From positions 1-64,000 of the forward strand of contig JAVHLK010000007.1 in assembly GCA_031082285.1 (NCBI GenBank): 64,000 nucleotides of DNA. The letters run 5' to 3'. This stretch comes from Desulfomonilaceae bacterium (GTDB lineage: Bacteria; Desulfobacterota; Desulfomonilia; Desulfomonilales; Desulfomonilaceae). The position numbers were made by a program, and so were the translations under genes. This document shows, piece after piece, positions 32,281-60,948 of this stretch. Positions within the stretch are counted from its first letter, which is position 1. Each line of letters begins with the position of its first letter. The notes under the pieces were generated by a model. It searched no databases, had not been told where the DNA came from, and saw only the letters and a program-made list of their open reading frames with translations.

Positions 32281-33828
32281 ATGAATAAAGGTTTTCATTT
32301 CATTGTTCTCTTCTGTGCCTTGATCCTGACACAGAACTCATGCGTCTTTCGATCGGTGTCCCAAGACAAGCCGGAGCCGGTCACTTCCGTGGAGGGTTGC
32401 GGCACCATCGAGAAGCTGCCTTTCAAAGAAGCGTGGTACGGTACCTATTTTCAGGAAGACAAGGTGGGTTACAGCCACTTCAGGATAGAGCCTGCAGGGG
32501 AAAACTACTCGATCAACACCGATTCGGTGATGCGACTTGTCGCGCTCAAGAAGACCAACGAAATCTCGATGAAGGAACGGGTTACGGTTCGGCCGGACCT
32601 GACCATGGTGGGATTCGAATCCGCGGTCACGATGAACGGCAAGGACCTCAAGATGACCGGCACCGCCAAAGGCGAGGAATTTGTGGTTACCATCAACGTG
32701 GAAGGGGAGGAATTGACTCGCACATATCCGGTGGACGAAAGGCTCTTTCATTCCAGTGCAATCTCCTTGATGCCGGCGCTCAAGGGCATTGAAGAAGGGA
32801 AACGCTACGCATTCGAGGTCTTCAATGCCGAGAAACAGGGTTTGGAAAAGGTTGAACTCGAAATCCGGATGGTGAAGGGATCGCCGGGACCCAGTGGAGC
32901 CGTGTGGAGGGTAAAGAATCGGCTGGGAAGATCCCGGATCGATTCATGGCTGAACAGGAAAGGACTTACCGTCCTCGAGAAGGCGTTGGGCGGGTCTCTC
33001 ATTACCATGCTGGAGAACGAGGATACGGTTGCGGACTTCTTGAAAAAAAAAAGTGACGCGAAGGATCTGATTCTCGACTTCAGCCTCATACCCGTAACGC
33101 GCCGGATACCAAATCCTGAACGGGTTCGGTTTCTCAAAGTGAGAATCAGCGGCATCGAAGCGTCCCTCATACCACAGGATCGCCGCCAGACGGTAACCCT
33201 CGTCGAAGACGGGCAACCCGGAGCCGGCTTCACCGTATCCGTACGGTGTGAGGACCTGATGGAATTCGACACCAAGAAACGCCGTATCGTGAGGGAATCC
33301 TCTCATTCGTCATCACCGGTTGGAGCCGGGTCCGGGAGCGACCCGGTTCTGGAAAAGCATCTCGAGTCCACCCTGGCCATACAGTCGGATCATGAGGAAA
33401 TCGTCGATCAGGCACGGAAAATCGTCCGCCCCACTGATTCGCCCATGAAAAAAGTCTCTAAACTGGTCGCATGGATGGAGGAGAATATCGAGACCAAGAT
33501 GCAGGATTCTTTTACCGCTCTGTCGGTTTTGCGAAGCAGGGAAGGAGAATGCCAATCACACGCCGGACTCTACGCTGCGCTGGCGAGATCGCAAAGGATT
33601 CCCACCAGAGTGGTAACCGGCCTTGTCTACACCGAAAAGGTGGGTTTTCTGTACCATGCGTGGGCCGAGTCGTACATCGACGGATGGATCGCGGTGGACC
33701 CAACGCTGAACCAGGTTCCCGCGGACGCGACCCACATAAAGATCGCGGTGGACGAAACGGGTGACGAGGCACACACTCTTCTGGAGATGGTGGGTAAAGT
33801 AAAAATGGAAGTCATTGAGTTTAAGTGA
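32281..33828 (+). CDS. Transglutaminase-like lipoprotein
   Basis: 515 aa. The N-terminus (FHFIVLFCALILTQNSC) is a lipoprotein signal with a plausible lipobox Cys near residue 21. The first ~370 residues have no recognised domain. The C-terminal part is a transglutaminase-like (TGc) fold with C424 (REGECQSHAGLYAALAR), H459 (LYHAWAES) and D473 (AVDPTLNQ) in the triad order. Bacterial TGc proteins act as peptidases or amidases at the cell envelope; the substrate is unknown. A second TGc-like protein is at 40111-42519. Confidence 0.88.
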   Translation: MNKGFHFIVLFCALILTQNSCVFRSVSQDKPEPVTSVEGCGTIEKLPFKEAWYGTYFQEDKVGYSHFRIEPAGENYSINTDSVMRLVALKKTNEISMKERVTVRPDLTMVGFESAVTMNGKDLKMTGTAKGEEFVVTINVEGEELTRTYPVDERLFHSSAISLMPALKGIEEGKRYAFEVFNAEKQGLEKVELEIRMVKGSPGPSGAVWRVKNRLGRSRIDSWLNRKGLTVLEKALGGSLITMLENEDTVADFLKKKSDAKDLILDFSLIPVTRRIPNPERVRFLKVRISGIEASLIPQDRRQTVTLVEDGQPGAGFTVSVRCEDLMEFDTKKRRIVRESSHSSSPVGAGSGSDPVLEKHLESTLAIQSDHEEIVDQARKIVRPTDSPMKKVSKLVAWMEENIETKMQDSFTALSVLRSREGECQSHAGLYAALARSQRIPTRVVTGLVYTEKVGFLYHAWAESYIDGWIAVDPTLNQVPADATHIKIAVDETGDEAHTLLEMVGKVKMEVIEFK

Positions 33829-33869: not shown

Positions 33870-33898
33870 TTGTAACAAGTGGAACTCCCGGATATAAT
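33870..33898 (+). promoter_or_regulatory. Sigma70-type promoter of the SelW-like gene
   Basis: TTGTAA (33870-33875), a 17-bp spacer and a perfect TATAAT (33893-33898), 52 bp before the ATG at 33950. Confidence 0.6.
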
Positions 33899-33949
33899 CA
33901 CTTTTCGAGGCTCGGGGCTCATTGGACCTTTCAAGGAGGAAATGAACCA

Positions 33950-34177
33950 ATGGATATCTGCAAGATCACGTACTGCGGGATGTGAAATTATAAACCAAAA
34001 GCAGCCGGTCTGGCTGATGAACTAAATGAGCGATTGGGGATTCACTCGGAACTGATCAGGTCGGGCGGAGGCGTCTTTGAAGTGGAATACGGCGGAAAGC
34101 TGGTGTTTTCCAAGAAAGAACAGGGTCGCTTTCCGGAACCGGGAGAAGTAGTCAAACTGATCGGAAAACTCGACTGA
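33950..34177 (+). CDS. SelW-like (Rdx family) selenoprotein with CxxU motif
   Basis: 75 aa with the in-frame TGA at 33983-33985 read as Sec12. It starts at ATG 33950 (AAGGAGG about ten bases upstream; an ATG at 33942 is out of frame). The product opens MDICKITYCGM-U-NYKPKAAGLADEL and goes on with GVFEVEYGGKLVFSKKEQGRFP, ending VVKLIGKLD. The beta-strand plus C-G-M-U redox motif, NYKPKA helix and the FP near the end are those of the Rdx/SelW family, thioredoxin-fold redox proteins. A standard-code reading sees only an 11-codon stub, so the gene is easily missed. A SECIS-like hairpin follows. Confidence 0.92.
33983..34016 (+). promoter_or_regulatory. UGA codon and bacterial SECIS hairpin in the SelW-like gene
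   Basis: CAGCC (34002-34006) pairs with GGCTG (34012-34016) around the loop GGTCT, 16 bases after the TGA. The apical GGTCTG matches the loop of the E. coli fdhF SECIS, and the spacing is also alike. Confidence 0.8.
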
Positions 34178-34236
34178 TCCTTGATCGAGGGAACCGAACG
34201 GTTCGTGTGATAGAGGGCTCCGGCGGTCGGAGCAGA

Positions 34237-35049
34237 ATGGGATTGACTATGGAGGACGAGGTTCCAAGGGCCCGGGCACCGATCATGGCGAGGCTGCTCC
34301 CGTCGCCGCTCTACACTATCAGAGGGGCACTGTTCATCTGGAATCACACGGTGCTGTGGAAGTATGCGGCCGCACCGCTGCTCGTCGGCACCGTCATTCT
34401 CGGAATTGCCTACATTCTGATATATTATTCCGTGACCGGTCTGGTCGGTTCGTATGCCGACGGAGCGTGGTACCTCAAGGTCCTTTACTACATCGTTTCG
34501 GTTATCGTGACGGTGCTGTTGCTGGTGATCGTGTTTTTTGTCTTCGCACGTGTCGCGTCAGCCATAGCCGCGCCCTTTAACGAGCTCATCTCCGAAAAAA
34601 CCGAGGAATTGGTTACGGGAACCTTCGATGAGACTCCGTTTTCATTCTTTGGGCTCATCAAGGATTCCGGACGATCCGTCGTTCATTCATTCAAAATATT
34701 GGGTATTTACGTGGCCCTTCTGGGAGGGGGACTTCCCATGATCCTTGTCCCGGGGGTGGGTGGTTTGCTCTATGCCGTCTTTGGAGCTTTGCTCTCGTCG
34801 TACATGTTCGCCTACGAGTACCTCGGATATCCCATGGACAGGAGGCGGCTTTCGTTCTCGGAAAAGAGACGTTTTTTGAGACGGCACTTCAGCAAGGCAA
34901 TGGGGTTTGGATTGGGAAATCTGGCCGTGGCTTCGATCCCCGGGATCAATCTGCTGTTTATACCGGCCGCAGTAGTCGGCGGAACTCTTCTGTTTCTCGA
35001 TGTCGGCTCGGCCGGCGCACGATCGGAACGATTACGAAAGGGTCTTTGA
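34237..35049 (+). CDS. EI24/CysZ-family membrane protein
   Basis: 270 aa from ATG 34237 (GGAG four bases upstream; ATG 34249 is an alternative). Hydrophobic segments at about residues 30-60, 85-115, 150-190 and 225-255 with SPLYTIRGALFIW, AAPFNELISEKTEEL and MFAYEYLGYPMDRRRLSF fit the EI24 (CysZ-like) family. CysZ imports sulfate; other members have unknown roles. No sulfate-assimilation gene is next to it. It overlaps closely with the next gene. Confidence 0.82.
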   Translation: MGLTMEDEVPRARAPIMARLLPSPLYTIRGALFIWNHTVLWKYAAAPLLVGTVILGIAYILIYYSVTGLVGSYADGAWYLKVLYYIVSVIVTVLLLVIVFFVFARVASAIAAPFNELISEKTEELVTGTFDETPFSFFGLIKDSGRSVVHSFKILGIYVALLGGGLPMILVPGVGGLLYAVFGALLSSYMFAYEYLGYPMDRRRLSFSEKRRFLRRHFSKAMGFGLGNLAVASIPGINLLFIPAAVVGGTLLFLDVGSAGARSERLRKGL

Positions 35050-35054
35050 CGAAT

Positions 35055-35546
35055 ATGGTGATACGGTGCTCGCATTGCAAGAGTATGATGAGGCTGGACG
35101 AAGCGGGGATTCCCGCGGGCGGCGGGGTCAAGGTACGCTGTCCCAAATGCAGGGAGTTGGACTACGTGGAGGATCCTTCCTTGTCCAAGAACCGCGCAAA
35201 GACGTCGCCCACGGCAAGCAAGGTCGGCCTTCAAACCTCCAAGAACCGAGAGCCTTCGTCCCGCCCGGCTCCCGGCACGGATGCTTCCCGGGAATCCGAA
35301 CCGTCGATTCCGGAAGACGCGTTTCAGGGGTTTCGTTTTCCCGCGGAACGGGAACAGAATTCATTCTCGGCAAGCCCAAGGAGCACGTGGGCGAGGGTCG
35401 TCATTTGGGTTGGCGTGTCATTGGCCGTGGTGGCCTTCTTCGCGCTTCTAGTGAACGTGATCCTTTCAGGACCGGCCGGAACCCGACCCTTTGTAGGAGG
35501 CGGGAATCAGTCCGGATCAGTCGACCGTCCGAACCCGGAACATTAG
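35055..35546 (+). CDS. Zinc-ribbon membrane protein (MJ0042-type motif)
   Basis: 163 aa from ATG 35055; a TTG at 35046 overlaps the previous stop and is possible. The N-terminus has two CxxC pairs (IRCSHCKSM ... VRCPKCREL) of a zinc-finger/MJ0042 motif, followed by a polar, Ser/Pro/Arg-rich linker, one membrane helix (VVIWVGVSLAVVAFFALLVN) and a short tail. It is a likely inner-membrane protein with a cytoplasmic zinc ribbon. Function is unknown. Confidence 0.8.
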   Translation: MVIRCSHCKSMMRLDEAGIPAGGGVKVRCPKCRELDYVEDPSLSKNRAKTSPTASKVGLQTSKNREPSSRPAPGTDASRESEPSIPEDAFQGFRFPAEREQNSFSASPRSTWARVVIWVGVSLAVVAFFALLVNVILSGPAGTRPFVGGGNQSGSVDRPNPEH

Positions 35547-35586
35547 CCGGCGTTCGGGGGACCTTCTTTTTATGAGGATGTGAACC

Positions 35587-36753
35587 GTGATCATAGATCG
35601 TGCAGCTCAGCAACAGAGAGAAAGAACGTTCCTGTCGCCATACGCATCGCTGTCGGAAAACACTCGAGGCCGCGTGTACGACGAGGAGGAGTGTCCCTAT
35701 CGAACCGCGTTTCAGCGTGACCGGGACAGAATTATTCACTCTAAAGCGTTCCGGAGGCTTGAGTACAAGACACAGGTCTTCGCGTACTACGAGGGTGATC
35801 ACTATAGAACGCGGTTGACCCACACCTTGGAAGTTGCCCAGATCGCTCGCAGCGTCGCCCAGTACTTGGGAGCAAACGAGGACCTGACTCAAGCGGTGGC
35901 GCTGGCACACGACTTGGGACACACCCCGTTCGGGCATGCAGGAGAACACGCACTGCATGACCTTATGCAGGCAAATGGGGGATTTGAACACAACACCCAA
36001 TCGTTGCGGGTAGTCGACCGTCTGGAAGAGCGGTACCCTGATTTTCCGGGCCTGAATCTCACGTACGAGACTCGCTCAGGGATTATTCGGCACGCCACCG
36101 TGTATGACAAGGCGCCACAAGACGTGCTCGACACGTTTCTCACCGAGGCTCAGCCGTCACTAGAGGCTCAGATCGTCAACCTGGCCGACGAAATCGCATA
36201 CAACTGCCACGATATAGAGGATGGATTGCGTTCCGGTTTCTTTGACGAGAACGATCTGTCGGACCTGGACATTTGGCGTGAGGTGACGCGCAGGATCCGG
36301 GAACGCCGGCCCGGCCTCGATCGAGACACGTTTCGGTATCAGGCGATCCGATCCCTAATCGACACCTTGATCAGAAACCTCGTCATCGCCACGGAAGATA
36401 GACTGCAGCGAGGCGGATTTGAGAGCTCCGAGCATATCGTGAATGCCGATACCCTTGTGGCCACGGCTTCACCCGAAATGCAGAAATGGAAGGAAGACCT
36501 CAATCACTTCCTTCACTCGAGATTCTACACCCACCACAAGATCATGAGGATGCAGTACAAAGCGTATCGGCTCCTCAAGGATCTCTTTGACGAGTACATC
36601 AAGAGACCGTCCCAGCTTCCACCCAGTGTGCAGAAGAGGATCAACAACGGAAAGGACGTTCCCGATCGGGTCATTTGCGATTACATAGCAGGCATGACCG
36701 ATCGTTTCGCCCTGGACGAACACAGGAAGGTATTTCTCCCGTACGAGTACTGA
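35587..36753 (+). CDS. dgt: dGTPase-like deoxynucleotide triphosphohydrolase
   Basis: 388 aa from GTG 35587. HD-domain metal ligands are clear: RLTHTLEVAQIAR (His), LAHDLGHTPFGHAGE (His-Asp) and DEIAYNCHDIEDG (Asp). N-terminal RGRVYDEEECPYRTAFQRDRDRI and the RRLEYKTQVF stretch are typical of dGTPase-like type 2 proteins, which cut dNTPs into nucleoside and triphosphate. The length agrees with type 2 (about 390 aa). It is a cytoplasmic enzyme that converges with mobA. Confidence 0.92.
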   Translation: MIIDRAAQQQRERTFLSPYASLSENTRGRVYDEEECPYRTAFQRDRDRIIHSKAFRRLEYKTQVFAYYEGDHYRTRLTHTLEVAQIARSVAQYLGANEDLTQAVALAHDLGHTPFGHAGEHALHDLMQANGGFEHNTQSLRVVDRLEERYPDFPGLNLTYETRSGIIRHATVYDKAPQDVLDTFLTEAQPSLEAQIVNLADEIAYNCHDIEDGLRSGFFDENDLSDLDIWREVTRRIRERRPGLDRDTFRYQAIRSLIDTLIRNLVIATEDRLQRGGFESSEHIVNADTLVATASPEMQKWKEDLNHFLHSRFYTHHKIMRMQYKAYRLLKDLFDEYIKRPSQLPPSVQKRINNGKDVPDRVICDYIAGMTDRFALDEHRKVFLPYEY

Positions 36754-60554: not shown

Positions 60555-60729
60555 AATCTGCCGCCGTTTCAAGAAGGTATGTGGCTCCGCAATCATGAAG
60601 CATGGAAAACACCGCATTGACAATGAGAAGCCGCGCCAATGTTTAGAGGTGGAAGAATCTATTTCCGGCGCGATGCCGGGAATATTGTGAAAGGACTGTA
60701 AGGGGCCTCAGGGCCCCGCGGAGGTTATC

Positions 60730-60948
60730 GTGTGGGATTTGGTCGTCGTGTGTGCAATCGTGTTTGGTGCTCTTGTGATACTGACGCTCCGGCTTGCAAA
60801 CCTTTTCCGAGCCGATCGTGGGGACGGCGCGTGTGGCTGCAGCGGCAATTGCGGGACCTGCGCGTGCAGTATCGGAGAAATCGACGGAGCCGCCGAGGGT
60901 TCCCAGGATACCGCCTCGAGGCCGAAGGCCCGCGTGAACAAAGCGTAA
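60730..60948 (+). CDS. FeoB-associated Cys-rich membrane protein
   Basis: 72 aa from GTG 60730 (GGAGG upstream). One N-terminal helix (WDLVVVCAIVFGALVILTL) is followed by CGCSGNCGTCACSIGE, five cysteines in tight spacing as in the FeoB-associated Cys-rich protein family. It is thought to assist iron transport at the inner face of FeoB. It lies between the short feoB and two feoA genes. Confidence 0.85.
   Translation: MWDLVVVCAIVFGALVILTLRLANLFRADRGDGACGCSGNCGTCACSIGEIDGAAEGSQDTASRPKARVNKA

Follow-up and report, generated by a model that had tools for sequence, protein, structure and literature searches.

A selenoprotein W-like gene with a predicted selenocysteine codon, missed by standard-code reading, in a Desulfomonile-related bacterium

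Does an in-frame TGA at the twelfth codon of a short frame in a Desulfomonile-related bacterium end a meaningless stub, or is it read as selenocysteine (Sec) within a real gene? A sequence-only reading of the window (the whole stretch of DNA that was analysed, 64,000 nucleotides) had proposed the latter, describing a hidden gene in which readthrough of this TGA yields a 75-residue protein with the motif CGM-U-NYKPKA. Coordinates and translation agree with that description. The frame opens with an ATG at 33950 and runs as an 11-codon stub up to the TGA at 33983-33985; reading through it gives MDICKITYCGMUNYKPKAAGLADELNERLGIHSELIRSGGGVFEVEYGGKLVFSKKEQGRFPEPGEVVKLIGKLD (75 amino acids). The features of the frame are as follows.

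33950-34177, + strand: selW-like selenoprotein gene, 75 amino acids, predicted Sec at codon 12, stop codon TGA at 34175-34177
33974-33985, + strand: CxxU redox motif (C9-G-M-U12), with no variation at C9 or position 12 across 15 genomes
33983-33985, + strand: UGA, the putative selenocysteine codon, a TGA in 15/15 family genomes with a match

The standard listing of open reading frames holds nothing on the frame of 33950-34177, and it is in this sense only that the gene is hidden: a gene caller using the standard code misses it. Ten frames in the window combine a readthrough TGA with a redox motif, and by eye the selW-like frame alone among them has clear family features.

Comparison of the 75-residue product with protein families placed it in the Rdx/SelW family, as had been claimed. 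Three models scored above their cut-offs: Pfam Rdx (PF10262; 69.1 bits, cut-off 22.6), TIGR02174 (CXXU_selWTH; 61.3 bits, cut-off 34.2) and NF041051 (SelT/SelW/SelH family (seleno)protein; 100.3 bits, cut-off 88), with matches that span nearly the entire product. The last of these, SelTWH_Campy, has a curated cut-off and is named for Campylobacter relatives, whereas the host here is a relative of Desulfomonile. Solved Rdx/SelW structures were also found as homologues (best E 1e-7), and for 2ljk (C17orf37), 2fa8 (Atu0228) and 2npb (selenoprotein W) the homology covers most of the domain; sequence similarity is modest, and the redox motif occupies the same position in the window protein as in these proteins. 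By homology, the window protein is predicted to adopt a thioredoxin-like fold. Among the structure alignments printed (2ljk, 2fa8 and 3dex), a Cys stands at the Sec position and forms a CxxC in the same place. A planctomycete locus (L056) likewise has TGC, the Cys form, at the exact position of the UGA, so that the comparison with Cys-containing homologues that had been suggested does align the UGA with Cys.

A single TGA standing where Cys homologues have Cys could also mark a pseudogene, that is, a Cys-containing SelW/Rdx gene in which TGC or TGT mutated to TGA. The relatives speak against this. We searched 18 genomes of the family, including the window's own, and found a match in 15 (14 of the 17 others). 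In each of the 15 the frame holds a single internal TGA, always at the same codon. In all 14 relatives the protein is 60-75% identical and stays conserved past the UGA. No family relative found ends at the UGA; homologues ending there were what the sequence-only reading had named as counting against a selenoprotein. Past the UGA the median dN/dS is 0.14 where it could be computed, synonymous changes being saturated in many pairs, and substitutions are concentrated at third codon positions. In a wider sample of 297 genomes from the phylum, 41 had a match; 38 of these contain an in-frame TGA, counted at any position along the frame, and one of them has a TAG as well. The remaining three have no stop and are presumably Cys forms. 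A TGA at the same position was also found on metagenome-assembled genome (MAG) contigs of Obscuribacterales and Chloroflexi. The identical TGA recurs in every family relative found and also in other phyla, the sequence after it is under purifying selection, and there is no further lesion; we consider a pseudogene most improbable, and we rejected this reading because the TGA and the intact coding sequence downstream are conserved across genomes.

The sequence-only reading had further pointed to a hairpin with a GGTCT loop at the right distance from the TGA, to be scored with a bacterial SECIS model.

34002-34016, + strand: predicted bacterial SECIS hairpin, 5-bp stem CAGCC/GGCUG, loop GGUCU, 21 nt from UGA to loop

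Published constraints for bacterial SECIS elements ask for an upper stem of 4-16 bp, a loop of 3-9 nt, a G in the first two loop positions, a distance of 16-37 nt from the UGA and a minimum free energy of at most -7.5 kcal/mol (PMC13188914). The hairpin lies within all of them (5 bp, GGUCU, 21 nt, -8.0 kcal/mol with dangling ends). It reaches -8.0 only with dangling ends and therefore passes on energy narrowly; strict scoring without flanking bases gave no SECIS call at the -7.5 limit. The same hairpin filter was passed by 118 of the 2152 TGAs in the window (5.5%), and the hairpin taken alone is weak evidence for a SECIS element. The case is built on conservation and not on the hairpin alone. 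This background rate would also suit a chance open frame without function, in which the 11-codon stub is meaningless. Strong family matches, conservation across phyla and conserved synteny make such a frame scarcely credible, and we rejected it because homology past the UGA was found.

Across the relatives, the SECIS helix is 96% paired, with compensatory changes, and its covariation score was reached by 0 to 1 of 500 shuffles; the structure fails when it is slid. Most informative is the pair formed by the wobble positions of two Ala codons, which occur as GCC/GCG (13), GCT/GCA (6) and GCA/GCT (1). These bases pair in 20 of 23 cases against 13.7 expected from codon-preserving shuffles (P about 1e-4, ignoring relatedness). 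As the changes are synonymous, selection on the protein does not explain the covariation. The local hairpin is short, and when the 58-nt region is folded in full its stability is nothing out of the ordinary (z -0.57). In several relatives the hairpin does not reach the -7.5 kcal/mol limit; a T-T mismatch interrupts the stem in L034, one of the 15 family members, and the outermost stem pair is broken in L026 and L029.

The absence of selA, selB and selC from the genome had been named as a second outcome that would weigh against selenocysteine. All three are present, as is selD. In the genome, selA scored 598 bits; selB scored 394 bits, with SelB-specific winged helices, a tRNA-Sec (selC) with anticodon TCA was found, and selD scored 366 bits and has an in-frame TGA of its own. 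The Sec-decoding trait is thus complete in this genome (selA, selB, selC and selD). These loci lie on contigs other than the window's, and within the window Rfam gave no match and a tRNA search found none. The selD gene (L018, G000:C177:29715-30635, - strand) has its TGA near the start (TSG-U-AAKMGPGDL), and a SelD with Sec near its start is a known form.

The conserved downstream protein requires readthrough, and readthrough would equally occur if general suppression or a changed genetic code made the UGA specify Trp or Cys. A TGA nevertheless terminates this same gene at 34175-34177, and the first UGA aligns with the redox Cys, as Sec does, and is followed by a SECIS-like hairpin, in a genome with the genes for Sec decoding and a selD that has a UGA of its own. 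We regard decoding as another amino acid as extremely unlikely, and rejected it on conservation. The locus is almost certainly a functional gene that encodes a bacterial protein of the selenoprotein W-like (Rdx) type, with the UGA read as Sec. From the sequence, SelB carrying Sec-tRNA would bind the hairpin just 3' of the UGA, and selenocysteine would be inserted at codon 12, completing the CxxU motif. The SelW-like protein is expected to be redox active: the selenol and the neighbouring Cys would probably form a small thiol/selenol redox site, which is probably reduced by glutathione or thioredoxin.

The promoter and the ribosome site claimed for this gene both precede the start codon, the ribosome site being a strong one.

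33870-33898, + strand: sigma-70-like promoter, TTGTAA-N17-TATAAT, 10/12 matches
33935-33940, + strand: Shine-Dalgarno sequence AGGAGG, about 10 nt 5' of the ATG

TATAAT occurs in the 120 nt upstream of the gene in 14 of the 15 family genomes (window included), compared with about 1 of 15 in shuffles (mean 1.0), and a GGAG-type site stands ahead of the start in nearly all relatives. The neighbours, at 32281-33828 and 34207-36753 of the window, encode a transglutaminase-domain protein and EI24/CysZ-like membrane, zinc ribbon and HD-domain dGTPase-like proteins. Their order (transglutaminase, selW, (EI24), zinc ribbon, dGTPase-like HD) is largely kept in relatives. That this conserved neighbourhood reflects a functional link, which would pair the SelW-like protein with a specific partner within this family, seems unlikely.

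Bacterial CxxU SelW-like selenoproteins, those of Deltaproteobacteria included, have been known since 2005/2006, and the window gene therefore joins a known family. In a Sargasso Sea survey SelW-like proteins topped the selenoprotein families by abundance (Zhang and Gladyshev 2005; PMC1088965). They were subsequently described in Geobacter and Desulfotalea, and Cys forms were reported to be very few or absent in organisms that use Sec (Zhang et al. 2006; PMC1794560), and a 2026 review lists them with PF10262 and CxxU (PMC13188914). The window gene shares with these bacterial SELENOW-like genes the PF10262 domain, the CxxU motif, a UGA followed by a bacterial SECIS, a presence among Deltaproteobacteria (Geobacter and Desulfotalea, for example) and a predominance of Sec over Cys forms; it differs in species and family only, and we saw no mechanistic novelty. 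In the literature collection searched, Desulfomonile together with selenoprotein gave no match. In Epsilonproteobacteria, SelW genes were reported to be completely missed in annotation (PMC4607533), and here too a real gene was missed by standard-code reading. It leaves the understanding of selenoproteins unchanged; what it contributes is a well-supported SelW in the Sec form, whose SECIS visibly covaries at synonymous sites.

Loci L048-L053 are Sec-form SelW genes in Obscuribacterales or Cyanobacteria-labelled MAGs, most of them with strong SECIS-like hairpins. Most of their genomes have selA and selB above cut-off; that of L050 has neither and is perhaps incomplete. The homologues L048-L050 and L052-L054 carry a C-terminal extension of about 30-40 amino acids, absent from the window protein, with the shared motif EAQ..A......PSF.EW or similar. 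Elsewhere in the window, at about 60690-60948 on the + strand, lies a small membrane protein with a Cys-rich tail (GACGCSGNCGTCACS). It probably starts after an upstream TGA, and we take it to resemble FeoB-associated Cys-rich proteins.
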